Shown here in pieces: positions 3,072-30,900 of a stretch of DNA of 57,579 nt. How positions within the stretch are numbered: position 1 is the stretch's first letter; each line of letters begins with the position of its first letter. Where the stretch lies: the IMG/VR virus record IMGVR_UViG_3300025769_000133, positions 1 through 57,579 of that record; one strand, written 5' to 3'. The notes beneath the pieces were generated by a model. The model did not search any database and was not told the DNA's origin. It worked only from the letters and a program-made list of their open reading frames with translations. The stretch is from a virus. Made by a program: the position numbers and the translations under genes.

Positions 3072-3599
3072 ATGACAATTAACGAAAAATTATCAAAAAT
3101 CCAAGTTGAGTTTAAATCAAAGAAATCTAGATTTAACTCGTTCGGTAAGTACAATTTCCGTTCTGCCGAAGACATTCTCGAAGCAACAAAACCCTTTTTA
3201 AAGGAGCTAAACGTTACTGTTACAGTAGATGAAGAGCTAGTATCATTTGACCCACCAGTTATGCAGGTTACTGCTAAAATATCTGATGGTAAAGATTCAA
3301 TAAACTCTAAAGCTGTAGTTGGTGTAGACTTAGATCAAAAAGGTATGCAAATGCCACAGAGATACGGCGCTGCAAGTTCATACGGTAAAAAGTATGCACT
3401 TGGTAATCTGTTCTTGATTGATGACACTCAAGATTCAGACGCAACGAACACACACGGCAAAGCAACTGCCGCTAAACAAACAATGACTAAAGAGTCTTTA
3501 GCTAAAGCAAAAGAGTATATTGCAAAAGGCGGTAGCTTAAATGCTATTAAAGCTAAATATGTAGTCACAAAAAAGCATGAAGAAATGCTAACACTATGA
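3072..3599 (+). CDS. erf: ERF-family single-strand annealing recombinase
   Basis: 175 residues. The N-terminal two thirds follow the ERF pattern: an initial helix (MTINEKLSKIQVEF), KYNFRSAEDILEATKPFLKE, and the signature GAASSYGKKYALGNLF followed by DDTQDSDA. ERF proteins anneal complementary single strands during phage recombination and genome circularisation or concatemer repair. The C-terminal tail (TKESLAKAKEYIAKGGSLNAI) is a short helical domain often attached to ERF. Its stop overlaps the exonuclease gene start by 4 bases, giving the classic annealase-exonuclease-SSB cassette. A 43-base A+T-rich gap precedes it, one of the few places in this arm where an internal promoter could lie. Confidence 0.88.
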   Translation: MTINEKLSKIQVEFKSKKSRFNSFGKYNFRSAEDILEATKPFLKELNVTVTVDEELVSFDPPVMQVTAKISDGKDSINSKAVVGVDLDQKGMQMPQRYGAASSYGKKYALGNLFLIDDTQDSDATNTHGKATAAKQTMTKESLAKAKEYIAKGGSLNAIKAKYVVTKKHEEMLTL

Positions 3600-4327
3600 A
3601 GAAAGAAAAGATAATAGAAATGCTAAGAGAAGATAAGCATTACTACGGTGACTTTGGTAAACAGTATTTAAGTAATTCAGATATATCTACATTACTTAAA
3701 AATCCATTAGCTTTAAAAGAACCTAGTAAGTCAAATGCTCACTTCTTAGTAGGAGGCTATTTTCACACTGCTATATTAGAACCAGATAAACTTAAGAATT
3801 TTAAGATTATTGATTCTAGTAGCAGAAACACTAAGGTCTATAAAGAAATGTCCGGTGGTGAAATGTGCTTGCTACAGCATGAGGTTGACTTAGTTGACAA
3901 TCTAATTTCTACAATGCTAAACAATAAAGTTTGCAGAGACCTCATCGCAGAAGAAAAAGGCGAATATGAAGTACCTGCAATAACTGAGTTGTTCGGTCAA
4001 ATGTGGAAAGGTAAAGCAGACGTTGTTAATCACAACGAAAAATTAATAATAGATCTTAAAACAACTTCTGATCTTGATAACTTTAAATGGAACGCTAAAA
4101 AATATAATTATGATTCTCAAGCTTACATTTATAGAAAACTATTTGGTTATGAATTTATATTTATAGCAATAGATAAAAAATCAGGTCAAATAGGTTTGTT
4201 CGACTGTTCTGATAAATTTTATAATTCAGGTATGGAAAAAGTTGAGAAAGCATCAGAAGCTTACGATCTATTTTATAACACAGAGGGATTTGACCCTCAC
4301 CAATATTTTATAAACCAAACCCTATAA
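3596..4327 (+). CDS. PD-(D/E)XK exonuclease, RecE/DUF3799-like
   Basis: 243 residues. An early G-GYFHTAILEP motif (about residue 60) is the G-x-x-x-H feature of RecE/AddB-type PD-(D/E)XK nucleases. WKGKADVV, LIIDLKTTSDLDNF, SQAYIYRKLFG supply the catalytic Asp, the D-x-K pair and the downstream Gln motif. It likely resects dsDNA 5' ends so that the adjacent ERF protein can anneal the exposed strand. Co-translation with ERF (4-base overlap) and the SSB-like gene one base downstream support this. The fold assignment is strong; polarity and exact substrate are inferred from context. Confidence 0.87.
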   Translation: MKKEKIIEMLREDKHYYGDFGKQYLSNSDISTLLKNPLALKEPSKSNAHFLVGGYFHTAILEPDKLKNFKIIDSSSRNTKVYKEMSGGEMCLLQHEVDLVDNLISTMLNNKVCRDLIAEEKGEYEVPAITELFGQMWKGKADVVNHNEKLIIDLKTTSDLDNFKWNAKKYNYDSQAYIYRKLFGYEFIFIAIDKKSGQIGLFDCSDKFYNSGMEKVEKASEAYDLFYNTEGFDPHQYFINQTL

Positions 4328-12563: not shown

Positions 12564-12697
12564 TATTTTTTTCTCTTTTTAGGTCTACAACTTCCCTTTG
12601 CTCCAGGTTTAGTACCAGGTACTCTTTCATATCCTAATCCGTAAGGACCACCTGTTTTCCAACAAGTGTTTTTTCTTCCTGTTTTTTTTCTTGCCAT
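12563..12697 (-). CDS. 44-residue basic hypothetical protein
   Basis: Opens MARKKTGRKNTCWKTGGPYG and ends KGSCRPKKRKK: highly basic, Gly-rich, two Cys. Its ATG overlaps the stop of the giant gene by one base and its stop overlaps the next ATG by one base, so it forms a coupled chain. No family recognised; likely DNA-associated. Confidence 0.6.
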   Translation of the reverse strand: MARKKTGRKNTCWKTGGPYGLGYERVPGTKPGAKGSCRPKKRKK

Positions 12698-13191
12698 TAT
12701 TTCTGTAATTCTAGTATTTTTCTAACTCTATCACCTTCGTACTTTAAGGCTTTTATTTCTTTCTCAGATAAACCAAGAGACTTAAGTGAGTCTTTTTGTT
12801 CAGCTGCAGGTAATTCATATAATTCTAATTCTTGTTTATTTCTTTTTTCTACAGGTACTCTATTGTTTTTAAAACTAGTGTTTTCTGTAAAATTAACCTT
12901 TTTAGGTTTAGTTTGTTTTGGCATAGCTTGTTTAGGCTTAGCTTCAGTTTTTGGTTTAGGCTTTTCTTCTGCTTTTTCAACTTCTACTTTTTCATCCTCA
13001 ACAACTATTGGTTCTGTTATTTCTTCTTCTTCTTTTTGTATACTTTTTTCAGTTGGTATTTTAGAAGTATATTTATTGCCAGAAGATTTTTCAGCTTTTA
13101 ATATAGCTTCAACTCTATCGCCCTGTTTTTTCATACCATCTATCTCATCTTGCGAATATCCATGCTGTCTTAAGATATCTTCTTGCTCCGC
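12697..13191 (-). repeat. duplicated C-terminal motif in the giant protein
   Basis: Residues 3533-3567 (AEQEDILRQHGYSQDEIDG... GDRVEAILKAEK) and 3662-3696 (AEQKDSLKSLGLSEKEIKA... GDRVRKILELQK) are divergent copies of one helical module. They are separated by about 95 residues rich in Glu, Lys and Pro. The last copy forms the exact C-terminus, so it may be a binding or packaging tag. Confidence 0.7.
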
Positions 13192-16100
13192 TTTATTATA
13201 TAAACTAGGGTTTTCTAAAGCTTTGTAGTAATGTTTTTCATCACTTTCTACATCTTTTCTTTGATCTTGTTGTGATTTAGATTCTAATTGCCACTCAGAC
13301 CAACCCATTAATAAAGCTACTCTTTTCCAATTTTCTTGATCTTGAGCTAAAGCATCTTTAACATTTATCATTTTTTGCAGTAATCTATCTAAAGGTATAT
13401 TTGTTACTGAAGCTGTTAACAAAGCACCTGACATGTATAAAGGATTATCAACACTAAAATAATCTTTCATTTTAGGACTATCTTCGTTGTACTCATATGT
13501 GTTCATGCCTCTAACAAACTTAGATACTTTAACATCTACAGGAGGAGCTATGTTTAAGGCTTCAAAAACTGCTTTATAATACTCAGGTCTTGGTTTTTGA
13601 GTTCTATCATATATATCTAAACCAACATCTTTTATCGCTGCAACTATTGATCCACCAACACCCATACCTCTAAGTAAACTAGTTAACATACCGTCTAAAG
13701 TATTTAATGTTTTTTCATCTAGTTCATCTTCATCACCATTTCCTATAGCAGCAAAAACAGCTTGTTGAAGAGCGTTAAACATGATATTTTGTAAAGCTCC
13801 ATAATAAGCTATTCTTGAGATATTACTTTTCCAATCACCTCTACCGTTAGCTAAGTCAGATATTGCTTTACCTATTATTCTATTGTACTGCATAGGTGTA
13901 TTAGCAAATGCAAGTATAGTTCTACCTAAACCACCAGCTTGTTGAGAACTAACTTCCATGGCATCAGAAGACTGTTGAGCTTCTCTTGACAATGCTGTCC
14001 ATTCTTCGTAGGCTTGAGCAGAAGCTTCATCTTCACTCATACCTTTTTTAGTTAAATCTTTTATTCTATTTCTATAAAAAGTAGCACCACCTGAAGCAAT
14101 AGCGAAACTATCAGCAACTTGAGTTATACTAAATCCTTTTCTTAAAAGTAAATTTAAAAAAGCTTTAGGTTTATTACTTTGATTATGTGTTGCATCGAAT
14201 ATTTCAGATTCTGATATATTTATTTTATTACCTCCTCTTCTATCAACTAAGAAATCAGAGTTAAATAAGTTCATAAAATCTTTCCAATACTGAGGTTGGT
14301 TAGCAAACGCCGCCGCTGCTTTAGCTGGATTATTGAAACTCCAATTTATATAGTTAGCTGCAGACAGTGTTTGTAGTATACCCGATCTCATGTTAAAGAA
14401 CATAACCGCACCAACAGAATTATTTAACCAGTCGTAAAATTTATTTTCTTGTGAACTATTACCTATTCTTCTGTTTCTACCAGACTTCATTCTTCTAAGC
14501 ATGTCCTCAAAAGATTTTCTATATTTAGTTCCATATTGATACTCAATAGCATTCATTAATTTACTATCATATCTAGACCCATTGTCTTTACCAAATATAG
14601 TTTCTATATTTTGATTCCATTCACTAAGTAACCTTGCTCTAGTTATTCTACTAACTCCCTGCATTAAGTCTCCCATCATTGAACCAGCTCCCCATTCTAA
14701 ACCTGGATAATAATAACCATCTCCTTTAGTTATATTAACTAACTGATCTGCCATTCTTTTTACAGCAGGATTATTACGAGCCATAGATCTTATTTTTTCC
14801 ATGGTAGTTTTAGGAACTCCATCTGCTTGAATACCTTGATTATCCCAAGCTAATATTCTAATAGCATCTTCATATGTGTAACCACCAAGCCCAGGCGCTT
14901 GTGCGTTTAGTTTAGGTATTGCTTTTCCTTTACCTACAAAATTATCTAATGTAGCATTAAAGTCTGCGAGTAAAGAATTCTTAAAAGCAGCTAGATCATT
15001 AAGAGCTCTAGTATATGGTTTAACTAAGTTATCTTTTAAAAACTCAAAATCTTCATTACCTTCTTGACCTTTACCTAAAAACTTATATAATAAACCAGTG
15101 AAGTTTTGGGTAGATGAAGGCGCCATTGGATTTTCAAACCTTTTACGACCTTTAATTTGTGCTTTTATATTAGATATATCTTTAATAGTTTCAGGATCTT
15201 TCTTAGCTTTTTTAGCTACCATTTCAAATAACCTATTAGCTATTTTTTCACCATCTAAAGCAAATCTCTCTTTAGCTTGTTGAGTTTTAGATTTAACATC
15301 TATTATGTCTAACACATCGCTAACAGCTTCTACATTTGGTAAGTGATCATCAGCAAAATAAAAGTCGTTATAATCTTCGTCTATATATTTACCTATAAAC
15401 CACTCGGCTTTTGCTTGAGGCGAACTATTACCTAATCCTGTTATATTTTCTAAAGGTATATCTACACCTTGAGATTTTAACCACTCGTGAATTGCTTTTG
15501 CTGATTCTGGAGCTCTAGCTGTAAGTATGAATATATCTCTTTTACCTTTTGCATTTTTCATTTGTTTAAGTAAGTCAAACAATGGGCCTTGCTTTCCTTC
15601 AACAACTCTGTTAAAATCACTAAAATCAAACTCTCCACCTTGCTCTCTTATTTTATCTCCGTCTTTTGCAAACTCTTCAGCAGTTAATTCACCTTTAGTA
15701 CCATCTGGCATTGTGTAAAACACCTTACTATTAGTGTTAGCTATAGTATCATCAAAATCAAATACTCTAGCCTTTTTAGGTTTTGTCTTTCTTTTATTTC
15801 TTGCCTTTTGAGTTAATGCGTCTAAGCTTTTCATCTTACTTAAAACTTCTGGACCTGTTAAATCACCTTCTAATACAACAGGTGCGTTGGTATTCTCTAA
15901 GGCTAATCTATCTTTGCTTTTTGGTTTTTGAGTATCTTCAATTGATTTTATTACATCTTCATTTTGATCAACTACTTCTTGTATAGTTTCTGCAGATACA
16001 GTAGCTTCAGCAGGATCAAAAGTTTCTGTTGGATTAGTTATACTAACTCTATCCTCTGTTTCACCCATCGACTCATACCTAATATTTTGAGCAGTACTAG

Positions 16101-19100
16101 TAGAACCTAATAAAGAATCTGTCATTTCAGCACGTACTTTAGGAACATGTGATTGGCTATAGTTAGTAAGTCTTAAAGCTATTTTGTTTTTTAAAGATTC
16201 TATTATTCCTTCTTTTTCTAAATTTGTTTGAGCTTTTCTTAATTTATCAGCTGCTTCCAAAACATCTATAGCCATGTCAGCCATTAAGTTTGAAGCAACA
16301 TCAATGTGTTCACCCTTGTATTTGAGTAAATCTGCTATCTTAGCTTCTATTTTAGCTTTTTTATTTACACGAGTGTTTTTATGAAATTCTTCAGCAAATT
16401 CTTTAGCCTCATCGTAAGAAGCGTGGTTAAAATTAATAACCCAGTCATTATCTTTTTTCTGTGCATCGCTAAGAGAGTTTGAAGTCTCTCCAGTTGATAA
16501 ATTTACAAAAGCAGCTTGAGATTTGTCATTAACCTCTATATCATTAACTCTAGATAAAGCTCGTAAAGACTTTGTATTATTAGTCATAGATTCTAACCAA
16601 CGTAGAAAACCTTTGATGTTTTTACTATCAGAAGCTATACTTTCCGCGGCTTTAGTCATTAGATATTCTATAGCTTTAGTATTAACTTCGTTTGCTTTTT
16701 GTATTTTATCTAATATACTACCTGACTTTACAGTGCCATCCTCGTTTAAACCTAATTGCTCTAGTTTTTCCTCTTTAGATATATCTTTATCTAATATCGT
16801 TTCAGCTCTACCTAGAACACCGTAACCAGCATTCATAAGTTCTATATCTTCAGGGTTGAAATCAAGTTCTTCTTGGTTTTTTAACTTGTTTATAACTTTG
16901 TTTACTTCATCTAATTGACTTTTAAATGGACCAAACCCACCACCTCTTTTCTTACCGCCATCTAAGTAATTGTATATGTAACTAAAAAAGTTTGCTCCTT
17001 TTAAGCTTTCAACTAACTTGCCAGGTAATTTAGAAATAAAATCCATTTGAAACTTATGCATCTCTTTCATAGATGTTTCAGTTCCCTTACCTTTAGACAT
17101 TGTTTTGTTCTCAAAAATATCGTTTGCTTCGTTTTTATAGTCTTGTGGCAAATTAGAATCGTCAATTTTACTTTTAAGTCTTTTCTTATAACCACTAACA
17201 GCGTCTCTAAATAAAGCTTTCAAAGGTTCTATAACATCATCAAACATTTCAAGCATTTCTTCACTAAAGTTTTTACTTAACTTAGTTTCTAAAACATCTA
17301 TCTTATCACCATCTTTACCAGCTTCTCTAACTGCATCAGCAAAAGTTTGATATAGTTTTCGTTGTATTTTTTCAGCAACACCATCTAAAGCAAATCTACT
17401 ATCAGGATTTTTATCTATAACCTCAGCTACTTCATTTATAGTAACTCTAGCTTGATTAAGTAGTTCGTTTCTTTCATTATACATTTCCATAACTTCAGGA
17501 TCAGATAAGACTTCCATAGTAGCGTCTTTACCTAATTCTTTAGCTAATAATGAAACTAAACCGTTTTTCTTGCTATAAGTAGTTCCTTTTTCTGGATTTG
17601 TAAAAGATTCAATAAACTTCTTTTTATTGTAAGGTTGTTTTTCATAAAGAAAATAACCAGCTGTTCTAGCTGTCGCAGCTTCTTTTTTATCTATTAAACC
17701 TTCAGAAACTAGTTTGTCAAATTCTGTAGTACTTAACCTTCTACCTGGTTTATTAAACTCAGGGTATGATTTATTAAATGCTGATTGAGATATCGCTTCA
17801 TAAACCTCTTCACCGTAAGTTTCTAAAAATGGTTCTACACCACCCATTTCATCTATTAGTAATCTAACAGATTGTTCACTTTGGGTTGCATAAGACTTTT
17901 CTAAAGCTTTTTTAAGTTTATTTGTTTTTACTTCTGGTAACACACCTTTGAAAGTATTTACAACACCTTCTTTTACTTTTTCAAATATATCGCTACCTTC
18001 TAATATACCCATTGCTTTTCGCATGTTTATTTTAGCTGCTTTTTTAGGCTCTACTTTTTCTAAACTTTCTTCAAGATTGCTATCTGTTACAAAAAGACTT
18101 GGTCCTTCTTCAGTATCTCTTTGTTCTCTAATATCTTTTTGAATAAGTGGATCAACAACTTGTTGCCATCTAAGAATTAAATCGTTCTTAACTTTTAATC
18201 CAAACGGCATATCTTTAAACTTCTTTTTACGTTTAAAAAATGCGTTATATATATTAGGATATTCAGTACTTCTTAAAGCTTCTTCTATTTCTGATCTAGG
18301 TATAGAGTAAGATAACTTCTCTCCATCTTTTGTCTCAACGGTACCTGTATATTCATTTCCAGTCATCTTAGAATTAACTACAAATTGAACTATAGCTTCC
18401 TTGTTGTTAGCATCTAATCTATTTTCAGCTCTCTGTTTAGCACCTGGACCACTATTAGGATCTTCTATAGTTGCAACGTCTTCAGCATTTTGTATACCTT
18501 TATTTAATTCTTTTATTCTTTCTTGAAGTCTAGATATTTTGTCTTTGTTTTTATCTTTATCCTTTATAAGATCTTTTATTTGACTTATTATCTTTTTCTT
18601 TTCAGCTTCATTATCTATTAAAGCAAACCTATCTGCATCAACTTCTTCACCTTGACCAATTGGCTCTAAAATACTTTTTGGTTGTTTTCTTTTAGTTTTC
18701 TTAGTAACTGGTGGTGGAGTAGGTTTTTTAGGTATTGTTTTCTTAATCTCTTCTTTAGCAAGTTCCGCATCTTCACTCATTAAATCTAAAAGCTTTAAGA
18801 AATCAACATCTGACGCTTCTTGAGATTCTAATATACCATCTGAGTTTACACTTAATTCAGTAGAAACAATGTCTTTTAACTTGTCTAAATCAATAGATTC
18901 AAGTTTTCCTTCTCTCATGAAATCTCTAGCATTAGCTATAATTTCATCAGCTTGCATTTGCTTGTTCTCTGGATCAAGTTTTATATAAGCATTTATTAAA
19001 TTCTTAAATTCTTGTTCAGACTCTGGACTATCAAACTTTAAAGCACCAGTTTCAAGATCTTTAGCTATTTGTTCTGCTATTTTCAATGTAATGTCATCTC

Positions 19101-22100
19101 CAAACTCTTCTTCTAGTACATCCACAAAGTAATGATCTAATTCATGATTAAACTTCGGAAGTGTTTTATTAGCTCTATTAAGTAAGTAAGCTTCTCTAGA
19201 GAATATAAATACTTTATCTTTTTTAATATACTTAGCTTGTTGAGTTATTCCGTCTGATTTTAAAGTAGTTCCGATAGATTCAGCATAAGCTTCAGCCTCT
19301 TCGTTTGTATCGAATATTTTTACATCTACATCTTTATCTTTTGCATTTTCTATTTTATTCAAAAATTCATTTTGACTTTCAGTAAATTGTTGAGATTTAT
19401 CACTAGTAAATTCTTGTTTAACATCTCCTTCTTCAGTTGTTGTAGCTTCAAACAATTGAGCTAATTGATCTTCAATTTCTTTTATTCTTTGCTCTGTTTC
19501 TAGTTTTATATTATAAGGCAACTCACCTTTTAATTTTTCTTTTAAATCATATAACTCACTTTCTAACATTACTTGCTGAGCAGCTACATCATCGCTTAGT
19601 GTTATATCTACTTTTTGAAGTATGTCATGAGTTTTTAACAAAGAAGCTTTTTGCTCATTAAACTTTATCTCTGCTTCTTCAATTTTCTTTTTCTTTACAC
19701 TTTCGTCTACAGCGCTGTTTGTTATTTTGTCTATTGTTTGCGTTCTTAAAACTTCTAATTGTTTCATGTAGACATCAACAACTTCTTTGCTTTTTAATGT
19801 AGACCATTCTGCAACGTGGTTTTCTAGCCATTTCTGTCTATTTCTAACTGATTTAACATTTGATATCACGTTTACAGAAACCATACCTTTGTTAACAATA
19901 CCCATACCCAAAAAAGAAACTTTAGCGGTTTCAATAAGTCTATTGTTATATTCCTCACTACCAAAATCAGGACTGTTAAATAAAGTATCTTCCCAACCTT
20001 TTTCTATTAATTTATTATCTTGAGATTTTTCGATGAGCATATTAACCATTTCCTGAATGGTCTCATCAGCTACATTAAAAGCTAAACCATTTACATATGT
20101 TATAGCTCCTGCTTTTACTAATTGATCAATTTCGTTTTTTACAAATTGTTTTAAACCTATACCTTTAATTTCATTTTTAGCAGCTCTACCAGTTATATAA
20201 GTAGCGAGTCTACTCATAGCTCGTGAGTTGCCTAAAGCTTCTATACCTATTTTATCCAAGTAAGCTTCTATACCTGGTTTAAAAAGCTCTATAATACTTC
20301 TGTCCATAGGAGATAGATTAACTTTCTTACCTGTTTTAGCTTCTAATTCCTTTATACTTTCATCTAAAGAAACCACAGAGTCAACGTGTAATCTAGTTAA
20401 AATACTTATAGGAGTATTTTCTACAGCACTTAAAGTTATAGCTTGTCTTTTGTTTATTTTACCAGCTTTATATGCGTCCATTATCTGCGCATTCTTTCTA
20501 CCTAGCCATTTTAGTCTAGATGGATTATCAACCCAGTTAACTAATCTACCAACTGTGCTAGCTTTACTAGCTCCAGCTGTAGCTACAGTTACTGCTATAT
20601 CAAAAGCAACATCAGTGACTAAGCCTAAAACTTGATACCCAGTTGTATCCCAATCTTGTAAATCATAACTCTGTGCAAATCCACCAGGTTTTATAGTAAG
20701 TTCGTCCTCAATAAATTGATCAACAGCAGCATTCATTGCACTAATGGCATCTTGAGTAAGATCTACCATTTGAGCTTCTAAAGCTGCAAGTTCATCTGCG
20801 CCAACACCTTCTAATATAGCTTCAGTAAGCATGTGTTGTAATTTCGTTATTTCTAACCCTATACTCCCTAATCCAGGTAGTATTTTAGCACCATTAGCTA
20901 GTATTCTGTTGAATACGAAAGCTACATCTTGAGCCCATGTTTGACCTTTTTCACTTATAGCATCGGTCATGTTTTCCATTTCTTGCTCTGCTGCTTTTTG
21001 AGCGCTGTTTAAACTTTGTATTGTTTTGGTTAACATGTTCTTAGAAAAGTCTATCTTATCATTAAGTTTTGACATTTCATCATGAAGACCTATTTGATCA
21101 ACCTTGTTCTCAACCTGTAACCCGCTCATTGGTAGTTGCCCTCTAGAACCTGAAAAATCACCAAGAAAATTATCTCTTTCTCTAATTATTAAAGGTAAAC
21201 CGCCATCAGTAGTTGCGTCTTTAGGGTATGTAAAACTAATTTCATTACCTGGTGAAGTTAAAACTGTTTGCTCTATACCAGCCGCATTAGCTGGTGGGTT
21301 ATTAAAAGAAGTGTTGTCTTTATATATCTGATTACCATCAGCGTCTAAATACTGTACACTATATAAACTTATTGGAGTACTGTTATAAGTAGCTAAAACT
21401 TGTTTATACTTATCTTTTATAACATTATTGTTGTCTATCCTATTATTTATTTCTTCACCTAGTTTAACATACTGTCTTCTAGTTTTACTTCCTTTTTCTT
21501 TACTTTTTGGATCTTTTTCTAGCTCAGCAAATTGTTGTTTTAATTTTTTAGTTTCAGTCTTATAGCTTTGAAAAGAACTAGCCATTTCATTAAGTACATT
21601 ATCCATCTGCAACTTAGTATTGCTAGTTTTGTTAATGTTGTCTGATAAACTGTTAGTTGTAGGATCGTTTTGTACTTCCTCTAACAATTGATCGTATCTT
21701 TGTTTAAAATAATTAGCTCTATTTAATATATCTTGAAGTTTACCAACAGCTGTATTATTAAAGTCTGCTTTTCCACCCTCTTTGATTCTATCAGCTATTG
21801 TTTCTTGATTTTTCTTTAACCAAGGAAAAATGAAAGCAAAACTTTCTGATTTCTGTAAAGCAAGTTCGTATCCATCTTCTGTATCATACTTTTGTAAAGC
21901 TCTTAAACCACCATCATCGTCTTCTTTTATACCGTCAGGCATATAACCATACCAATCTGTAAATTGTATAAAATCAGCAGCTTTGCCATCAGTGTTTAAA
22001 ACATCACCCGTATATAGGTTTTGCCAAACATCTGCGGTTCTAGGAACTCCATCTATATCATATGCAACATCTGCATATAGTCTCTTATCTATTGGATCGT

Positions 22101-23787
22101 AGAAAAAACCATACGAAGCAAACTCTGATGAATTTATAGACTCAAGTATTTCTCTAACTGTTATCTCACCGTTTTCAAATCTATTTTTCAAATTATCAAC
22201 GGCTGTGTTGAAAAACTCATAAGCATCCTCTGGTTCCATGTCTTCAAAGTCTGCAATAATTTTTACGTTTGGATCGCTTTTACTAGGAACTAACAGTAAA
22301 TCTAAGTCTGGTTGAAACAGTTCATCTATATAAGTTTGAGCATTTGCTTCAAATATTAAGTTTAACTCATATGGGGTTGGTGCATACTTCTCGCGCTTTT
22401 CATCAGCATTAGCGTCAATAATAAAGCCGTCATCGTAAGGATCTATAGCTGAATCCATTAAAGGTACTGGAGTATATTTAACTTCAATTTCTCCGTATGG
22501 AGTTTCTCTAGCTAAAACTAACTGATCTTCTCCACCAATAAAAGTTTCAATTTGACTTTCTTTAAACTTATAATCGTATTCAAAATCTATGTCACCGTCT
22601 TTAGTTTGAAACGGTATAGGCATTGAGTAATCTATCTCTGGAATTAATATATCTTGTTTACTGGTTTCAGGGCCTTTCCATTTTATACCTATTAGTTTAA
22701 AATCTTCAAAACCAGAACCTTTAACTTCACTTTTTCTTAAGTCTGGATTATAAACACTTCTTTTTTTGTTTTGCATTTTATCCCACTCGCTTGAAACTCT
22801 ATTAGCTAAGTTTGGATTAACTTCAGCTATTTCGTCCATTGAAGTTATATCAAAATCAGGATCAAAACTGTTTTTAGATAATTCTTTATTCCACTTTTCT
22901 CCTTGATAAACTTCATTTAATCTTTTATTAAATTCATCTATAGGTATATAGCTATTTCTACCTCCTGACATCCATAATTCTTTGTCTTCAGGTTTTAATT
23001 TATCTAAAGTGTTAAGATTATGCTCCGTAGCCTCGTCCAATGTAAGGGTTTTCGTAGTGTAATCTTCTCCATCACCTTCATAGACTCTTACCTCATCACC
23101 CGTTTCGTGCTTCTCATATTGCTCTAATCTTTCGTATTGATCTCTATTTAAATCAAGTTTTACTACTCCCTCTTGATCAACACTTGGATCAAATATATCA
23201 TCTAAAATATTTCTTAACGCTGGATCATCTATAGTAGAAGTATCTTTTTCTATGTTTATTAAACCATCTTCACTAACATTTTCTTCTGCCCAGTTTTTAA
23301 TTTCCTCTAATTTTTTATTATCTTTTTGTTCTTTTTTTGCTGGTTGTACATATCTCCATGGATAATCAGAAGACTGAGTGTAAGGATTGTTGTCGTTTAT
23401 AGTTGAAGAAGTTACGGTTGGCGTAGGTGCTTTTTTAACTTTATTATTAACTTTAGGTACTTTTATTTTATGATCGCTCCAGTTGTAGTTACCATTTTTA
23501 TCTTTAGTGTTCTTACCTTTACCCTGTACAGTGTACTTAAGTTTTTCTCTACCTTTTAGATCTTCCCATTTTTGATTAGTACCTGGTTTTATTTTGGTCT
23601 TTGGAGTTTTTTGCTTTTTATTGTAATTAGGCCCTTTTTGTGCTGTGGACACTTGAGCTTGAGAATATCCACTACCACCTTTACCTTTTAAACTAGCTTT
23701 GCTAGATTTTTTAGCTTGCTTTTTCGCTTTTCTCTTTTTTGGATTGCCAGGACCTGTGTTAAAATTAGTACTAGAAAATGTAACCAT
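12697..23787 (-). CDS. giant polyvalent virion protein with metallopeptidase, HAD and LPD38-like domains
   Basis: 3696 residues, 19% of the window; probably a virion protein ejected with the DNA. The N-terminus is Lys-rich; residues about 650-1100 are coiled-coil rich, followed by a hydrophobic stretch near 1110. A metallopeptidase site is visible: FNHELDHYF with H1548, E1549, H1552, and E1615 in ADEIIANARDF as likely third ligand. A HAD phosphatase-like domain spans about 2670-2830 (VFDFDDTIAN with D2677/D2679, FILTAR, FADDHLPN). Residues about 2850-3420 resemble the LPD38-type region of marine phage polyvalent proteins (FFNMRSGILQTLSAANYINW, LAFANTPMQYNR). R-F/L-A-L motifs at R1720, R2131, R2627 and R2841 divide the chain around these domains, suggesting processing. 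The C-terminus holds a duplicated 35-residue motif. No DxDGD polymerase motif was found. Confidence 0.85.
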   Translation of the reverse strand: MVTFSSTNFNTGPGNPKKRKAKKQAKKSSKASLKGKGGSGYSQAQVSTAQKGPNYNKKQKTPKTKIKPGTNQKWEDLKGREKLKYTVQGKGKNTKDKNGNYNWSDHKIKVPKVNNKVKKAPTPTVTSSTINDNNPYTQSSDYPWRYVQPAKKEQKDNKKLEEIKNWAEENVSEDGLINIEKDTSTIDDPALRNILDDIFDPSVDQEGVVKLDLNRDQYERLEQYEKHETGDEVRVYEGDGEDYTTKTLTLDEATEHNLNTLDKLKPEDKELWMSGGRNSYIPIDEFNKRLNEVYQGEKWNKELSKNSFDPDFDITSMDEIAEVNPNLANRVSSEWDKMQNKKRSVYNPDLRKSEVKGSGFEDFKLIGIKWKGPETSKQDILIPEIDYSMPIPFQTKDGDIDFEYDYKFKESQIETFIGGEDQLVLARETPYGEIEVKYTPVPLMDSAIDPYDDGFIIDANADEKREKYAPTPYELNLIFEANAQTYIDELFQPDLDLLLVPSKSDPNVKIIADFEDMEPEDAYEFFNTAVDNLKNRFENGEITVREILESINSSEFASYGFFYDPIDKRLYADVAYDIDGVPRTADVWQNLYTGDVLNTDGKAADFIQFTDWYGYMPDGIKEDDDGGLRALQKYDTEDGYELALQKSESFAFIFPWLKKNQETIADRIKEGGKADFNNTAVGKLQDILNRANYFKQRYDQLLEEVQNDPTTNSLSDNINKTSNTKLQMDNVLNEMASSFQSYKTETKKLKQQFAELEKDPKSKEKGSKTRRQYVKLGEEINNRIDNNNVIKDKYKQVLATYNSTPISLYSVQYLDADGNQIYKDNTSFNNPPANAAGIEQTVLTSPGNEISFTYPKDATTDGGLPLIIRERDNFLGDFSGSRGQLPMSGLQVENKVDQIGLHDEMSKLNDKIDFSKNMLTKTIQSLNSAQKAAEQEMENMTDAISEKGQTWAQDVAFVFNRILANGAKILPGLGSIGLEITKLQHMLTEAILEGVGADELAALEAQMVDLTQDAISAMNAAVDQFIEDELTIKPGGFAQSYDLQDWDTTGYQVLGLVTDVAFDIAVTVATAGASKASTVGRLVNWVDNPSRLKWLGRKNAQIMDAYKAGKINKRQAITLSAVENTPISILTRLHVDSVVSLDESIKELEAKTGKKVNLSPMDRSIIELFKPGIEAYLDKIGIEALGNSRAMSRLATYITGRAAKNEIKGIGLKQFVKNEIDQLVKAGAITYVNGLAFNVADETIQEMVNMLIEKSQDNKLIEKGWEDTLFNSPDFGSEEYNNRLIETAKVSFLGMGIVNKGMVSVNVISNVKSVRNRQKWLENHVAEWSTLKSKEVVDVYMKQLEVLRTQTIDKITNSAVDESVKKKKIEEAEIKFNEQKASLLKTHDILQKVDITLSDDVAAQQVMLESELYDLKEKLKGELPYNIKLETEQRIKEIEDQLAQLFEATTTEEGDVKQEFTSDKSQQFTESQNEFLNKIENAKDKDVDVKIFDTNEEAEAYAESIGTTLKSDGITQQAKYIKKDKVFIFSREAYLLNRANKTLPKFNHELDHYFVDVLEEEFGDDITLKIAEQIAKDLETGALKFDSPESEQEFKNLINAYIKLDPENKQMQADEIIANARDFMREGKLESIDLDKLKDIVSTELSVNSDGILESQEASDVDFLKLLDLMSEDAELAKEEIKKTIPKKPTPPPVTKKTKRKQPKSILEPIGQGEEVDADRFALIDNEAEKKKIISQIKDLIKDKDKNKDKISRLQERIKELNKGIQNAEDVATIEDPNSGPGAKQRAENRLDANNKEAIVQFVVNSKMTGNEYTGTVETKDGEKLSYSIPRSEIEEALRSTEYPNIYNAFFKRKKKFKDMPFGLKVKNDLILRWQQVVDPLIQKDIREQRDTEEGPSLFVTDSNLEESLEKVEPKKAAKINMRKAMGILEGSDIFEKVKEGVVNTFKGVLPEVKTNKLKKALEKSYATQSEQSVRLLIDEMGGVEPFLETYGEEVYEAISQSAFNKSYPEFNKPGRRLSTTEFDKLVSEGLIDKKEAATARTAGYFLYEKQPYNKKKFIESFTNPEKGTTYSKKNGLVSLLAKELGKDATMEVLSDPEVMEMYNERNELLNQARVTINEVAEVIDKNPDSRFALDGVAEKIQRKLYQTFADAVREAGKDGDKIDVLETKLSKNFSEEMLEMFDDVIEPLKALFRDAVSGYKKRLKSKIDDSNLPQDYKNEANDIFENKTMSKGKGTETSMKEMHKFQMDFISKLPGKLVESLKGANFFSYIYNYLDGGKKRGGGFGPFKSQLDEVNKVINKLKNQEELDFNPEDIELMNAGYGVLGRAETILDKDISKEEKLEQLGLNEDGTVKSGSILDKIQKANEVNTKAIEYLMTKAAESIASDSKNIKGFLRWLESMTNNTKSLRALSRVNDIEVNDKSQAAFVNLSTGETSNSLSDAQKKDNDWVINFNHASYDEAKEFAEEFHKNTRVNKKAKIEAKIADLLKYKGEHIDVASNLMADMAIDVLEAADKLRKAQTNLEKEGIIESLKNKIALRLTNYSQSHVPKVRAEMTDSLLGSTSTAQNIRYESMGETEDRVSITNPTETFDPAEATVSAETIQEVVDQNEDVIKSIEDTQKPKSKDRLALENTNAPVVLEGDLTGPEVLSKMKSLDALTQKARNKRKTKPKKARVFDFDDTIANTNSKVFYTMPDGTKGELTAEEFAKDGDKIREQGGEFDFSDFNRVVEGKQGPLFDLLKQMKNAKGKRDIFILTARAPESAKAIHEWLKSQGVDIPLENITGLGNSSPQAKAEWFIGKYIDEDYNDFYFADDHLPNVEAVSDVLDIIDVKSKTQQAKERFALDGEKIANRLFEMVAKKAKKDPETIKDISNIKAQIKGRKRFENPMAPSSTQNFTGLLYKFLGKGQEGNEDFEFLKDNLVKPYTRALNDLAAFKNSLLADFNATLDNFVGKGKAIPKLNAQAPGLGGYTYEDAIRILAWDNQGIQADGVPKTTMEKIRSMARNNPAVKRMADQLVNITKGDGYYYPGLEWGAGSMMGDLMQGVSRITRARLLSEWNQNIETIFGKDNGSRYDSKLMNAIEYQYGTKYRKSFEDMLRRMKSGRNRRIGNSSQENKFYDWLNNSVGAVMFFNMRSGILQTLSAANYINWSFNNPAKAAAAFANQPQYWKDFMNLFNSDFLVDRRGGNKINISESEIFDATHNQSNKPKAFLNLLLRKGFSITQVADSFAIASGGATFYRNRIKDLTKKGMSEDEASAQAYEEWTALSREAQQSSDAMEVSSQQAGGLGRTILAFANTPMQYNRIIGKAISDLANGRGDWKSNISRIAYYGALQNIMFNALQQAVFAAIGNGDEDELDEKTLNTLDGMLTSLLRGMGVGGSIVAAIKDVGLDIYDRTQKPRPEYYKAVFEALNIAPPVDVKVSKFVRGMNTYEYNEDSPKMKDYFSVDNPLYMSGALLTASVTNIPLDRLLQKMINVKDALAQDQENWKRVALLMGWSEWQLESKSQQDQRKDVESDEKHYYKALENPSLYNKAEQEDILRQHGYSQDEIDGMKKQGDRVEAILKAEKSSGNKYTSKIPTEKSIQKEEEEITEPIVVEDEKVEVEKAEEKPKPKTEAKPKQAMPKQTKPKKVNFTENTSFKNNRVPVEKRNKQELELYELPAAEQKDSLKSLGLSEKEIKALKYEGDRVRKILELQK

Positions 23788-23788
23788 A

Positions 23789-25060
23789 TTATACGATATT
23801 TACTTTTTCAACTGTTTCGTCAAATAAGTTATTAGATGATTTAACTACTTCACCAGCGTTTTCAACACCTTCATCAGAATCACCTTGCTTAACAGCTGAT
23901 TCTTGTTTGACGTAAGGTAATACGCTTTGGTTATGATAACCATTATTAAAAGACCAACCTAATAAATCTCTTTGAAAATCAATTAATGGTGAGTTTTTCT
24001 GAGTGTAGTTTACTTCAGCACCCATGTATGAACCCCATTGTTCTCCACCATTCTCTTGGTAATCCTTTACTAAATCTACATTAGGGAAATACTTTCTGTA
24101 TTCTGAAAATATAGACACAAGTTTATTTTCTAAAGGTGACCAAGAATCAGGATTTTCATAATCTAAACCATTTAAAACACTTACAGACATTTGTTGAGCT
24201 TGAGGCCATAAAGACTGCATACTACTTTTTTGATTTAATATATTAGTATGATCGTAATTAGATATAACTTCTTCTATTTTTTGATTATCTTCTATAGTAT
24301 ACATTACATCTTCTTTATCACTTTTTACAGGTTGTAATGCTAAATCAGCAGTTATTTGTTCTACTAATGGAACATCTCCTACTGAATCCATACTATTATA
24401 TACTAATTCTTTCGGATCACCTAATAAAGGTATTAATTGATCTGAGTTAATATTTGGATCTAATTGTTGTTGTATAAGTCTTTCTACATATATAGGTTCA
24501 CTATTCTCTTTGTATATTAAAAGCTCATCATTCTCGTCTAATTCTAAGTTAAAATTAGCATCTTGATTAACATTGAAGTCGCTTATGTAATCTAACCATT
24601 GTTTGTTTTCAGCCATTAAACCTACATTTATAGAACCTGGTGATCCTAACGGTTTCACCAAGGCTTCAGACAAAGCACTATTAGCGTCCTTAAATATGGA
24701 TAAAGCACCTACTATTTTATCAGGCATGTTTAAAAGCTTTTTTTGTCTAGCTGGATCATTATCTACAACAGCTTGATAATAAGCATCTTTCATTCTAGTC
24801 GCTACAAAATTAGCGTTTTTACTGTTAGTATTTACAGGAGGCTTTGAAATATTACTTAAAGATCCTAAGTTACCACCGTTGTAACTTTGTAATTTTAAGT
24901 AATTAATAGTATCACTAGCATGTTTAAAGTCGTTTTTTAAACCCTTTTCCGCAACACCTGATTGTATTTCTACAGCTTTATTAAAATCCTGTACACTATC
25001 AGTATCACGCTTGTTACCGTGTTTGTCACTAGTTGTAGCTTGGTTAGAATAATCTTTCAT
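23789..25060 (-). CDS. internal virion-type protein, function unknown
   Basis: 423 residues, mostly polar and acidic, without signal peptide or membrane segments. Asn/Gln/Ser-rich stretches alternate with helices (WLDYISDFNVNQ, YVERLIQQQLDPN, NKLVSIFSEYRKYFPNVDLVK). Its stop is one base from the giant gene start and it follows the repeat-bearing 247-aa protein, a trio reminiscent of the T7 gp14-gp15-gp16 internal-core order, where size increases downstream. That parallel is by position only. It could be a partner loaded into the capsid together with the giant protein. Confidence 0.65.
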   Translation of the reverse strand: MKDYSNQATTSDKHGNKRDTDSVQDFNKAVEIQSGVAEKGLKNDFKHASDTINYLKLQSYNGGNLGSLSNISKPPVNTNSKNANFVATRMKDAYYQAVVDNDPARQKKLLNMPDKIVGALSIFKDANSALSEALVKPLGSPGSINVGLMAENKQWLDYISDFNVNQDANFNLELDENDELLIYKENSEPIYVERLIQQQLDPNINSDQLIPLLGDPKELVYNSMDSVGDVPLVEQITADLALQPVKSDKEDVMYTIEDNQKIEEVISNYDHTNILNQKSSMQSLWPQAQQMSVSVLNGLDYENPDSWSPLENKLVSIFSEYRKYFPNVDLVKDYQENGGEQWGSYMGAEVNYTQKNSPLIDFQRDLLGWSFNNGYHNQSVLPYVKQESAVKQGDSDEGVENAGEVVKSSNNLFDETVEKVNIV

Positions 25061-25069
25061 TTTTTTATT

Positions 25070-25813
25070 TTAAGGATTGGGTGATATTGCTCCTACGCCA
25101 ACTAAGTTACCTATAGTACCCATTCCAGCGCTAGCTATATTCCCAAACGCATCGTATTTCATTTGAGTATGAGCTTGTTCTTTTTGTAACTCATTGTCCA
25201 TTTGAGCTGATAATCTATCTAATTTAGCCATGTCCCTCTCTTCTTGCTGAGCAAATCTCCATTGTTCGCCTTGTGCTACTTGAGTTTGTCTAGCTTGTTC
25301 ACCTCTTGCTACCGCCATTTGTCTAGTTGACTCTCCTTGAGCAACGGCCATTTGTCTAGATTGTTCGCCTTGTGCTTTTAACTTTTGGTTATTAGCCTCT
25401 TGTTGTTCTATACTAGCAGATATACCTTTTTTACTTTCTAGAGCCATACGAGCTAATGCTGTAGCACCTCCAGAACCTCTACCGGTCCTTAACATAGTGT
25501 CTAAGGTGTTAGCTAAAGCTTGATCAGCTTGTTCTGCTTGAAACTCAGCGGCTTGAGTAGCTACTCCTAAGTTAGCATAAGGATTATCCATTTTAGCATA
25601 TGGATTTGTTAGATCTTTAAAAGGATTAGTTGCGCTAGCGTATGGGTTGGTTATAGCCTGCATAGCGTTTTCTTTATCAGTTATAGCACCTTCTATTTCC
25701 CCTGCTTTTATTCTCGCTTTTTTAGCTTTATTATTATTAGAAATAGCACTAGCTGTGTTGGCTCCAACCGCTATCGCGCCTCCTACTACCACTGCTGTTG
25801 TTACTGCTGCCAT
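25070..25813 (-). CDS. internal virion protein-like (T7 gp14-like position) with repeats
   Basis: 247 residues. The N-terminal 25 residues are hydrophobic and small (MAAVTTAVVVGGAIAVGANTAS), fitting a membrane-inserting helix of an ejected core protein. Residues 56-83 contain four N-P-Y/F units at exact seven-residue spacing (N56, N63, N70, N77). Residues 148-191 contain four eleven-residue units built on QGEQxRQMAVA. The rest is Ala/Gln/Glu-rich helix, and the C-terminus (GNIASAGMGTIGNLVGVGAI) is again small and hydrophobic. T7 gp14-type proteins share this membrane-active, Ala/Gln-rich helical design. Sequence homology cannot be claimed. Confidence 0.65.
   Translation of the reverse strand: MAAVTTAVVVGGAIAVGANTASAISNNNKAKKARIKAGEIEGAITDKENAMQAITNPYASATNPFKDLTNPYAKMDNPYANLGVATQAAEFQAEQADQALANTLDTMLRTGRGSGGATALARMALESKKGISASIEQQEANNQKLKAQGEQSRQMAVAQGESTRQMAVARGEQARQTQVAQGEQWRFAQQEERDMAKLDRLSAQMDNELQKEQAHTQMKYDAFGNIASAGMGTIGNLVGVGAISPNP
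25241..25372 (-). repeat. four 33-base (11-residue) tandem repeats
   Basis: Units at residues 148-158, 159-169, 170-180 and 181-191: QGEQSRQMAVA, QGESTRQMAVA, RGEQARQTQVA, QGEQWRFAQQE. An eleven-residue period suits a slightly right-handed coiled coil or an amphipathic membrane-surface helix. Confidence 0.85.
25565..25648 (-). repeat. four 7-residue NPY/NPF repeats
   Basis: TNPYASA, TNPFKDL, TNPYAKM and DNPYANL lie head to tail, residues 55-82, with an exact 21-base period. The units are extended or turn-forming, unlike the helices on either side. Confidence 0.85.
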
Positions 25814-26225: not shown

Positions 26226-27926
26226 TTAATTGATTTGATTTGTTCTTATAAATTTACTACCTGCGGAGAATAGTTCTTTAACACCGCCTAATTGAGTACT
26301 TTCGTCTGTGCTAAGTTTAACTTCAGCTGTAAAACCTTTTATACCAGCCATATCTGATCCATAGATAATCTCTTCGTAAGCTACGTCACTATTGTTAATT
26401 AAGTTAGACATGTATACGTTTTCTTTCCTATTAAACCCAACTCTTAAGTTATAACCTTGATCGTCTATGTATAAACCTTCAGTGAAACTTTTAACGGATG
26501 CTGATGTGTCTCTAGTTTCTTCCCAATTAGAATAAAAATCTGGACCTGTAAAATAAGATCTAAAATAGTCTACTTGCCATCCATTGCTTCCTTCATAACT
26601 AACTGTTTTAAAGTTTTTCATTATTGATGGTTGGGGATTGAAAACAAAGACTATACTTGAATTATATTGTTCTCCATAAAAATAGCTTCTATTAGCTGTA
26701 GGAAAGTAGTGTTGGTATAACTCTATATTGTTAGACGTGTAAAAATTTCTTTTAAAACTTTGTATTATTGTTGGTTTATAAGTATAGAAACTAACCCAAC
26801 CTCTAACAGTTTCATCATAAGCTAAAGTTTTATATTCTCCAACTTCTTCATTTGGATTAGCTGGTTGAATAGATAGTAAATACTCGTCAGCATAGTTATC
26901 AAAGCCACCAACAACAGAATCTTTTCTAAAACTTGAAAATGTGGCTTCATCATCGACAGGTATGTCTATTTGGTTGTTTAAAGTTATATTTACAGTTGAA
27001 TTAGCTCCAGATCCAGCATATCCAGTTAAATCCACTATTATGGGTGAATTAGGAAATGATTGTAAAGTCATTCCATTTTCTAACAACTCTACATCTTCAC
27101 CCTCTGCCGTTATAACATAACCACTTCCTGCTTGTAAAGTAACTGAAACATTATATAAAGAAAGTTGTTCTCTCAAAGAACCTAACTTGTCTCTAAAAAA
27201 ATCTTTCATACCATAGTTGCTTATTTCAGTAAGCCCATCATACGTAAGTCTAAGAACTTTTCCTCTATAAGCATCTGTAAAATATCTTCTAGTACCAAAG
27301 TGAGCGAAACTTTCAGGATTTTTACTTATTCCATAATCACCATTATATGGTGTAACTTGACCAATAACTACATCAGCAGTTGTAAGAGAACCGCCTCCTG
27401 AAGCTGAATATATAGCATCTTTATCAATTAAACCTCTACTACATTTATTTTCTTGTAATATGTCTAGATTAGTATTAGATGCAAATATTTTTTGTATAGA
27501 TCCATATCTTGGATCTACATCTTTTCTTATATCTTCAGCTATAGAAAACACATTAGTTTCATTTATCTGTGTTGTAGAGTTAAAAATGCCTGAATATATT
27601 ATACTTGAACTTAGTACTTGCTCATCTTTTATTTCTACAGCTGCGTAAGCTTTTGGTCCTAATTCTGTTTGTGTATTATTGTAACCACCTCTTATTCTAG
27701 ATTCTTCTACGTACCAATTGTATTCAGCTGGAGCACTGTTTTTTCTAGTCATATCAACGCCAAAACAAGGGTAACCTTCAGGAACCCAAGGTAAACTAGG
27801 CCAAACAGCTTCTGAGTTAACTTTAACGGAAACATTATTAGTTCCTGAGTTAGTTTCAAACAAACTACCAACAGCTCTTTTAAGTAAAAAAGTGTTAAAA
27901 TAACTTACCTCTATTACTGTACTCAT
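26226..27926 (-). CDS. tail/virion structural protein
   Basis: 566 residues, beta-rich, polar, without signal or membrane segments. Segments such as FTDAYRGKVLRLTYDGLTEI and YGMKDFFRDKL recall tail-tube or tail-hub proteins of crAss-like phages, where a ring or tube protein follows the long 'stabilisation' protein. Several motifs pair aromatic residues with Asn/Ser (YFYGEQYNSSIVFVFNP). The start ATG follows an A+T-rich leader without a Shine-Dalgarno site. It sits directly downstream of the 1395-aa protein. Virion location is likely; the exact role is inferred from context. Confidence 0.7.
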   Translation of the reverse strand: MSTVIEVSYFNTFLLKRAVGSLFETNSGTNNVSVKVNSEAVWPSLPWVPEGYPCFGVDMTRKNSAPAEYNWYVEESRIRGGYNNTQTELGPKAYAAVEIKDEQVLSSSIIYSGIFNSTTQINETNVFSIAEDIRKDVDPRYGSIQKIFASNTNLDILQENKCSRGLIDKDAIYSASGGGSLTTADVVIGQVTPYNGDYGISKNPESFAHFGTRRYFTDAYRGKVLRLTYDGLTEISNYGMKDFFRDKLGSLREQLSLYNVSVTLQAGSGYVITAEGEDVELLENGMTLQSFPNSPIIVDLTGYAGSGANSTVNITLNNQIDIPVDDEATFSSFRKDSVVGGFDNYADEYLLSIQPANPNEEVGEYKTLAYDETVRGWVSFYTYKPTIIQSFKRNFYTSNNIELYQHYFPTANRSYFYGEQYNSSIVFVFNPQPSIMKNFKTVSYEGSNGWQVDYFRSYFTGPDFYSNWEETRDTSASVKSFTEGLYIDDQGYNLRVGFNRKENVYMSNLINNSDVAYEEIIYGSDMAGIKGFTAEVKLSTDESTQLGGVKELFSAGSKFIRTNQIN

Positions 27927-27953: not shown

Positions 27954-30900
27954 CTAAGTGTATGTAGGACAAATCTCATCGCTTGTGTCTCCTGTAAAGC
28001 AATTTACTTCAAATTGTATGTACCTATATATAGATATACCAGCTGGTGTTTGACCTACTAAAGCACCATCTGATAGTTTAACCAACAACATGTAACCTAA
28101 AGGTTCATTTGATTTTTTGTATATTGGATTATTACCACCACAATCTATAACATTAGGTATACTACCAAAAGCAACAACATCCCAATTGCAAGTTCCACCT
28201 GGATCACTACACGCATACCAATTGTTGGGCGTAACAAAATTGCCACTTTGAAAAACATTGTCCAAGCCGAAACCATTTGGATTACCAGGTCTAACACTTC
28301 TATTATAAAATATTGTATTAGAAAAAGTTTGCGTTCCTTGTTGTGGTGAATTTCCAATTTTAAACCATGGATCACCAAATGGTGAATTCCAATTATTTGT
28401 TGCATTACTACCATCTAACTTTATATAACCTGAACCTGACTCAACCCAAGCTTCTTCAATCTCCCATCTTAATTGTCTTCTGTTTGGCTCTGGAGAATTT
28501 GTTGAAGGATCAGCGCTTCCATTAAAACCATCTAAAACGACTAAAGGAGAATAAGTGTTAGAATTAGGTTGAGGTTGACAAGGGTTTGGATCTGTAGGTC
28601 CATTTGATCTTACTCTTGGTTTTAAATTTAAATTAAGTCTATTAACTGGATTTACAGGAACTGGATTAGATGGGTTAAAAGTAGGAGGTGGTACAGGCAT
28701 AGGTGTTTGTGATCCTACAGGATAATAAGCATAAGGTGATATGTTATTCAACAAATTAGGAGGTTGTACAACTATGCTATTAGTAACATTACCGTTAACC
28801 ACTTCAAAAGTAAAAGTATAATTATCAACAGTAGGTGAACTAGCATACCAAACAAAATATTGGTTTGGGGCAATAGCCATTTTAAAACTATTGTTAGCAT
28901 TTTTTATAAGCGTAGTGCTGAATACACTAGTAACGTTTCCACCATTACCGTTTGTAGCTAAAGTGAGTGTTATAGAAGTACTACCGTTATTTATTACTAA
29001 TCCACCAGCCGTAAGAGGATAAAAATCACCTGTAACTATATCGCCATCACCCATGCTTTCGTCTAAAAAGAAGTTTAAAGACTCTAAATCGGTTGGTAAA
29101 TCATTATCTTGTGCTGGATCTTCATCTAATATAAAGTCATTTAATTCTGATATTAATCCAGTAGTATTTGTTTCGTAAAATATGGGTATATTAGAAACTG
29201 TAGGAGCTGTTTCATATACGCTTAATACTCCTACTTTGTAATTAGGTAAAGGCCATTGTTCAGGAAAATTAAAAGCATAACTTGAACTTCTAGGATCAAG
29301 TTGATTTGATTGATCAAGATAACCAACAGCTGTACCTATTTGTTTTTGAGTTGAAATACTTGCTATTAAAGCAGAGTTGTCATTGTCAAATTCAATTTGA
29401 TTACTTAAATCTCCAGCTATAGAATAAAAAGGCGAGATTCTATAATCTCCTGTAGCTCCAAATTCAAAACCATTTATAGATCTATCCGTGCCAACATCTT
29501 TAGATTTACCTATTCTAACTACTTTATCCGCTGTTTTTTCAGGTGTTATTTGTATATTTTTATTTCTCCATTTTACCAATGCATCACCATTAAAAATATT
29601 GTTACCACCATTAGGTGCAAAAGCGTCATCAACTAAATAATTAACAACCCTTGGCCACATGCTTACACTACTATTAAAAAGAGATTGTTCTGGACCTACT
29701 TCTTGTAAGTCTCTTGGAACTTTATTTATGTTATCTCCATATAGAGGTGTGTATGCCTTTATTTTACTATATGTAAAACCAAAAGGAGTAGACCAAAAAC
29801 CACCAGCTGGTTGTGTCTGTGTGGTTGATGGAGCATCTTGAGTAGAATCTTTGTCTTGAGGTAAGTTATTTAAAATGCCTGGAAGATAAACATTGTAATA
29901 GTCTTGTTGCTGCTGTTTAACTACTATTTTATAAGTGTACCAACCCAGAGGATTCGCATCTTTTAAAACTTTTACTTCCACTTCTATATCAGGCACACCA
30001 CTTCCAGTTGGTTCTTCGAATAACACAAATTCACCTATTCCATAATTTTTTCCAGCTTTAATTATATTAGCACTACTTACATTTGTGTCTCCATTAGCGT
30101 CTACTGCAACCTGCAATGTTAAACCAGTACCTACACCTTCAGTGTCGTAAGCTTCAACTTGATAAGTATTATTAGGTAACCAATTAGCTCCTTGACTTAG
30201 AACTTCAAACTGTAATACTCCTCCTTCATCGGCGTATAATCCAGCATATCCAACAGTATTTAAAGCTGATGGTATTACATTGTTAAATTTAACCTTTAAA
30301 GAATCACCTGGCCAAACATCTTCTGGTTCAATACCATTGTAAGAAAACAAATCTTGTCCTTCACTTCTATAGTATGAAAAAGTTGTGGATCCTCCAAATT
30401 GTCCTAAATTACCAAACTTATTTGTTTTTGATAAATCATTTTGAGATAATATAACGTCAGATTGTCTTCCGTATCTGTCTGATAAAACAATACCAACTTG
30501 ATAAGTTCTGTTTTGTTTTAAACTATGATTTTGATACTCTTTTCTATAATATGGTTTAGTAACTATACCAGTTACTCCTTCTTTTAGTTTAGGTGTCACA
30601 CTTACGCTATAATCAAAATTGTCTGGTACAGCTGTTTTTGCGGTGTAATTAGCATATAATATTCTATTACCAGCGGTGTCTTGTGTTAAAGCTCTTATAG
30701 GTGTTACATCAGAAACTCTTACTAAATAAGATTCAGGTAAAGTTCTAATAGGTTTTCTAGAGTTGTAAACATATTCATAAGTATCAGTAGTAGTAGCATT
30801 TATTATTTCTTGTGTTTTTATAGTATCTAAAACCATTAAATTTAGACTATCTGAAGATTTATACAATATATCAATTTCTTGAACATGATATATATCATAA

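Follow-up and report, generated by a model that had tools for sequence, protein, structure and literature searches.

A giant cysteine-free protein of a marine crAss-related phage as a candidate self-processing polyprotein with lineage-specific border motifs

Is a single very long phage protein cut into several delivered parts, and does it carry the peptidase that would cut it? The question arises from IMG/VR virus record IMGVR_UViG_3300025769_000133, analysed here over its whole stretch of 57,579 bases (the window), in which one open reading frame (ORF) encodes a protein of 3696 residues. A first-pass annotation had proposed self-processing by an embedded metallopeptidase from a HELDH sequence at residues 1548-1552, a downstream glutamate (E1615) and four R[FL]AL tetramers at 1720, 2131, 2627 and 2841, all behind HELDH, and each of these elements was confirmed in the sequence. 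We consider the protein a strong, still unproven candidate for a giant that cuts itself into several delivered parts by its own zincin, with a probability slightly above one half (about 0.56). Its parts are laid out as follows:

12697..23787, minus strand: giant cysteine-free polyvalent-type protein of 3696 aa (ORF; syntenic giants in relatives)
19321..23787, minus strand: N-terminal part, residues 1-1489, without border motif, with a transmembrane-like stretch at 1053-1071
18868..19320, minus strand: zincin-like metallopeptidase domain, residues ~1490-1640
19132..19146, minus strand: HELDH, residues 1548-1552 (H1548, E1549, H1552)
18943..18945, minus strand: E1615 in ADEIIANA, predicted third metal ligand, in a column that is Glu throughout 114 relatives
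18619..18630, minus strand: border motif 1, R1720 FAL (DRFALI), in the disordered tail after the peptidase
17386..17397, minus strand: border motif 2, R2131 FAL (SRFALD)
15898..15909, minus strand: border motif 3, R2627 LAL (DRLALE), ahead of the HAD domain
15277..15777, minus strand: HAD-type phosphatase domain, residues 2671-2837, related to polynucleotide kinase phosphatases
15256..15267, minus strand: border motif 4, R2841 FAL (ERFALD), directly after HAD, in a conserved DVKSKxQQAK tail
13084..15255, minus strand: conserved C-terminal domain, residues 2845-3568, family-wide, no Pfam match

The chain joins several unrelated domains (peptidase, HAD and conserved C-terminal domain) and has a zincin metallopeptidase as hub domain, both traits of phage polyvalent proteins, and its long N-terminal part is probably a virion or ejection part. 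In scans with Pfam, PHROGs and PADLOC the HAD domain was the sole match, and neither Pfam nor PHROGs returned an RNA polymerase. The LPD38-like label given earlier to the last piece of the chain gained no support from the PF18857 (LPD38) profile, which was silent on the giant and also on the control genomes in the same search.

Residue shuffling yielded R[FL]AL 0.08 times per protein, and four copies came up in 0 of 2000 shuffles. However, many tetramers occur two or three times in the giant, and comparative tests were taken as the real evidence because the R[FL]AL pattern had been chosen after being seen. Relatives were reached through the portal gene, which led to hundreds of related viral contigs whose records were searched with the giant; two more scans with alignments of the HAD and C-terminal domains brought the set to 127 distinct giants, 123 of them longer than 2000 aa (L-numbers below denote individual giant proteins of relatives). 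The giants of ctfjg026, phi38:1, phi18:3 and Panino, and Elemovirus gp18, are without this C-terminal domain or the QQA junction described below, and the border tests leave them out for want of a shared junction. As a single query the C-terminal part had no match in viral contigs, and its domain is encoded by none of 50,697 GenBank phages searched. A short repeat lies at the end of the chain (residues ~3535-3570 and ~3655-3695, within 12697-13200: ILRQHGYSQDEIDGMKKQGDRVEAIL / SLKSLGLSEKEIKALKYEGDRVRKIL); it is present in two to three copies in many relatives and weakly resembles the HeH fold PF21488. Two of the giants, L122 and L123, differ from each other and lie on opposite strands of one 50 kb IMG/VR contig, representing either two copies carried by a single phage or an assembly chimera.

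Across the family the HAD domain is followed by an almost invariant tail, D-V-K-S-K-V-Q-Q-A, and the sequence right after it differs by lineage: K-E-RFALDG in the window and KFSKS, AKNID, AKDID, LNESKNLN, NTSEKMN or ASKR elsewhere. The tetramers at this junction (offsets +1 to +4) were approximately 2.5-4 times commoner in their own protein than in the other giants, with ratios near 1 at offsets further out on both sides. AKDID stands on both sides of the HAD domain in L165, and LNESK does so in L149; other repeated motifs are NTSEKM in L164, ASKR in L287 and L189, and KFSK, found four times in L123. Lack of conservation of the R-F-A-L tetramers had been named as a result that would refute the proposal. 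Taken literally, it applies across the family, but what is conserved is that the borders match one another within each genome. The nearest relative, L116, 41% identical to the window protein over its match, retains [DE]R-x-A at each of the homologous borders, four in number (DRAATT, DRFALN, ERNAKT and ERFALD), in linkers that align poorly.

One test scored how well any five residues of the junction were matched within the 100 residues ahead of the HAD domain, with mismatched genome pairs as control. The best matches gave z 8.7 among 51 genomes of less than 90% identity and p 0.0002 among 25 of less than 70%, and repeating the test on HAD-internal and C-terminal stretches gave null results. Recurrence of the junction motif elsewhere in the chain was concentrated between the peptidase and the HAD domain, where 50 own matches were found against 10.5 expected and fewer than 1 in 10,000 permutations reached the observed value; own and expected counts were 4 and 5.1 for the N-terminal part, 2 and 0.9 for the peptidase, 1 and 0.95 for the HAD domain, and 1 and 2.3 for the C-terminal part. 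The excess held among genomes of less than 60% identity (n=19; 18 vs 3.2, reached by 0 of 10,000 permutations) and in the 28 lineages with a motif free of FS/YS (29 vs 4.4). Chance alone as the source of four R[FL]AL copies in a long protein rich in lysine and leucine, an idea to which the choice of the pattern after sight and the ordinary repetition of tetramers lend something, is refuted in our view by the family-wide permutations and the HAD-flank test, with the shuffles also against it, and carries next to no weight.

Could the motifs instead be copies of linker sequence, spread by duplication or recombination when modules were inserted and serving no recognition function? Two sites in the window point that way: 2131 and 2841 share the same DNA across RFALDG, with weak similarity over ~30 more residues (E 0.004). 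An iterative profile search pointed, with a strong score, to a wider homology of the region behind site 2131 with the one surrounding 2841; on direct comparison this was judged to be profile drift. Insertion is also seen in relatives, as modules have been inserted next to the HAD domain, at its border, in L123 and L124. In general, however, the similarity in 48 own site pairs is confined to about -2 to +6 around the tetramer (~nine residues) and falls to background beyond, and the codons of the repeated motifs are close to random: 232 of 370 are identical where codon usage alone would give 210, and serine often changes between AGY and TCN. Recent duplication is therefore unlikely as a general explanation, and the persistence of the signal among genomes below 60% identity likewise speaks against functionless linker copies, which we hold to be quite improbable.

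The sites also lie outside folded domains, in agreement with their earlier placing at domain borders. In an AlphaFold2 model of residues 1440-1720, confidence (predicted local distance difference test, pLDDT) exceeds 90 over ~1490-1640 and site 1720 falls in a tail below 50; in a model of residues 2586-2883 the HAD core (2671-2837) is of high confidence and sites 2627 and 2841 are in its flanks, at pLDDT ~60-67. The HAD domain had been said to fill the interval 2627-2841 exactly, and this is accurate at one end only, since 2841 directly follows the core and 2627 precedes it by ~44 residues. A fifth, looser match (RVAL 3489) lies within the conserved C-terminal domain. The comparisons show the short motifs to be a non-random, lineage-specific set at module borders, behind the peptidase and outside folded domains.

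The HAD domain of the window matches a polynucleotide kinase family in PHROG; at the level of fold, acid phosphatases and the Pnkp1 RNA-repair complex are among its weak matches. KFSK sites 2118 and 2516 of L123 enclose a P-loop kinase (AAA_33, 2186-2329) and, after it, the HAD phosphatase, and the next unit contains DUF6934 (2529-2633). Such a bifunctional unit of polynucleotide kinase/phosphatase type may represent a nucleic-acid repair activity delivered with the phage DNA.

The second component of the proposal is the peptidase. HExxH is present in 114 of the 123 giants, once per protein, vs 0.4% of shuffled ones, and the columns of H1548, E1549, H1552 and E1615 are invariant in two alignments of 114 and 68 sequences, with E1615 in a predicted helix. 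Three giants without HExxH (L163, L197 and L255) have HExxxH, which a profile places correspondingly in two of them; Iyer et al. 2017 (PMC5512222) had already noted this HEXXXH variant in polyvalent proteins. The catalytic signature of a gluzincin-type site can be regarded as firm at the level of sequence. The best structural matches of the model are zincins of middling score, both below Z 8, namely the zincin-like domain of anthrax lethal factor (Z 7.4, root-mean-square deviation 4.1, 155 aligned) and PPEP-2 (Z 4.8, deviation 4.3, 140 aligned). Foldseek with the peptidase model returned nothing at E 0.001, a profile of the domain had no significant match among PDB sequences, and a BFVD search gave weak matches only, headed by a phage MuF protein at E 0.018. 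Assignment to the zincin fold is suggestive, and the domain is best described as a predicted peptidase.

Several observations weigh against self-processing. No cleavage product has been seen. Exact recurrence of the junction motif (at least once) is found in only 35 of 59 genomes, and in the remainder the motif is either too degenerate for a tetramer test or absent. Conservation of the metal-binding residues, which had been named as a check, holds in most giants and fails in a few: L166 has a recognisable peptidase (residues ~1001-1105) in which EELFH replaces HExxH, yet carries three KFSK sites, and L263 and L267 are without HExxH yet retain KFSK/KYSK sites. In these three, whose peptidase has lost its first histidine or can no longer be recognised, either another enzyme reads the sites, or the peptidase was lost recently, or the sites have a docking-type role. 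The same peptidase subtype can accompany different motifs, and in partial Mantel tests motif and peptidase divergence were positively correlated, equally so for neighbouring regions. The tests therefore do not single out the peptidase, and they are not counted here as evidence of co-evolution. Finally, the N4 virion RNA polymerase has a HExxH and is packaged uncut (PMC5512222; PMC12633501).

The giants that keep their sites without HExxH also suggest that the sites may be genuine cleavage sites cut by a different protease, of head maturation or of the host, while the zincin acts on something else such as a host protein or the cell wall. There is precedent on both counts, as virion proteins of phage SPN3US are cut by one prohead protease at A-X-E (PMC10052503) and zincins acting on host proteins are allowed for by Iyer et al. 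2017 (PMC5512222). Unlike a general head-maturation site, however, the lineage motif is not enriched in ORFs neighbouring the giant (own 6 vs cross 9 in 162,179 residues), and within the window R[FL]AL is limited to the ORF of the giant. A host enzyme would not favour a different sequence in each phage lineage, and no second protease was found by Pfam among ten window proteins tested. We regard cutting by a foreign protease as unlikely.

Short co-varying motifs limited to linkers would suit binding tags no less than cleavage sites. The linkers could remain uncut and bind a lineage-specific scaffold, portal, tail or ejection partner that packs or threads the chain, much as cargo protein gp45 of phicrAss001 binds portal and tail barrel through short segments (PMC10172136). 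It is difficult to see, however, why tags of this kind would stand only behind the peptidase, when the longer N-terminal part also needs packing and has none, or why the peptidase residues are conserved, and we would give docking tags only a rather small chance.

Self-processing by the embedded zincin is the explanation that we favour. The following account of the cutting, of the enzyme responsible, of when it acts and of the release of effectors is inferred. A marine crAss-related podovirus probably packages the giant in its virion and ejects it into a Bacteroidota host. The giant's own peptidase, acting in cis or between copies, would cut the linker sites before or after ejection; the place could be the cell or, as has been inferred for P1 DdrB, the head. 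The cuts would release a ~195 kDa N-terminal/peptidase part, modules of ~47 and ~56 kDa, the 24 kDa HAD phosphatase and the 97 kDa C-terminal domain. With peptidase and sites drifting in step, each lineage would come to have a site sequence of its own. Thermolysin-type zincins often favour a large hydrophobic residue immediately behind the scissile bond. Such a rule would fit R|F or K|F, but the AKDID and ASKR lineages break it, and we assign no cut position for that reason.

The predicted delivery into the cell, part of the original proposal, is supported by the near-total lack of cysteine and by the place of the gene at the end of the virion cluster; the positional counterpart in phi18:3 (1935 aa) is annotated as virion protein from tandem mass spectrometry. 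The giant has 0 Cys in 3696 residues. Over all 123 giants, 358,084 residues include 31 Cys, and 109 of the 123 are free of any; for the majority of replication and nucleotide enzymes in the window the figure is about 10 to 25 per thousand. Two adjoining virion genes (23789-25060 and 25070-25813) are also Cys-free. Lack of cysteine has been reported for the N4-type virion RNA polymerase and attributed to the need for injection (PMC3915230). By the same logic the whole chain, including the HAD and C-terminal domains, presumably crosses an oxidising compartment unfolded, and the absence of cysteine could serve to mark ejected phage proteins.

The giant-protein ORF closes the virion structural gene cluster as its last gene. 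The other members of the cluster that were recognized are:

41598-43838: terminase, virion gene cluster
39260-41614: portal, virion gene cluster
36588-38048: virion structural protein, virion gene cluster
26226-27926 and 27954-32141: crAss muzzle-family proteins, two genes (PF25731 and PF25729 above Pfam cut-offs)

The division of crassvirus muzzle domains between two genes is here seen in a phage of marine flavobacterial type. Elsewhere in the window, 53273-54823 encodes a phage-borne GroEL-like chaperonin (phrog_5725, E 1e-136). The closest portals are those of ctfjg026 and of Elemovirus, Pervagoviridae and Pachyviridae phages of flavobacteria; the window portal is 49% identical to that of metagenomic phage ctfjg026 (MW202828) and ~42% to those of Flavobacterium Elemovirus phages, and more remote from those of Cellulophaga phages phi38:1 and phi18:3. 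A large protein occupies the corresponding gene position in ctfjg026 (3859 aa) and in Elemovirus (3694 aa, annotated as structural).

More tentatively, and at somewhat less than even odds, a large family of marine crAss-related phages may use self-processing giants in which each lineage has a private cleavage code, with three to five sites and the zincin diversifying together and the modules between the sites being swapped. If so, effectors would plug into a cut-to-release cassette, and the giants would parallel, among bacterial viruses, RNA-virus polyproteins with fast-shifting specificity. The matched motifs provide exact, testable candidate cut sites for the whole family, with the differences between lineages as internal control. 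Should the cuts occur, they would show how one ejected chain becomes several proteins, reveal the modules, and make available a wide range of related zinc proteases that differ in their short recognition sequences. Self-processing of polyvalent proteins has already been predicted; the lineage-specific border code appears to be new, and no description of it was found in the open-access literature searched.

Among known systems, the polyvalent proteins of Iyer et al. 2017 (PMC5512222) resemble the giant in being large and multidomain, with a HExxH zincin and a downstream Glu, and in their predicted delivery with DNA and release of modules by the embedded peptidase. That proposal was made from domain logic, with P1 DdrB as processed example and N4 as counterexample, and the available text names no processing site, whereas the giants described here have matched, lineage-specific motifs behind the peptidase. 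The N4-type virion RNA polymerase of Schitoviridae is likewise ~3500 aa long, ejected, without cysteine (PMC3915230) and equipped with a HExxH domain (PMC12633501). It differs in being packaged uncut, and the giant has no polymerase signature by Pfam or PHROGs. To our knowledge, no border motif is known for the N4-type enzyme.

The cargo proteins gp45-gp50 of phicrAss001 (PMC10172136) share with the giant the neighbouring crAss-type muzzle proteins, are stored in head and tail and are ejected partly unfolded; gp47 carries a HExxH. They are encoded by several separate genes in place of one giant, and no cleavage of them is mentioned in PMC10172136. The prohead protease gp245 of SPN3US (A-X-E, PMC10052503) offers a likeness in that a short motif marks the cuts in several head proteins, including ejected ones. 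There, a separate protease reads one motif in the products of several genes; here, the protease would be embedded and the motif lies within one protein. The polyproteins of eukaryotic RNA viruses combine an embedded protease with several domain-border sites that differ between lineages. Their proteases are different ones, and the phage giant is predicted to be virion cargo and not a whole proteome.

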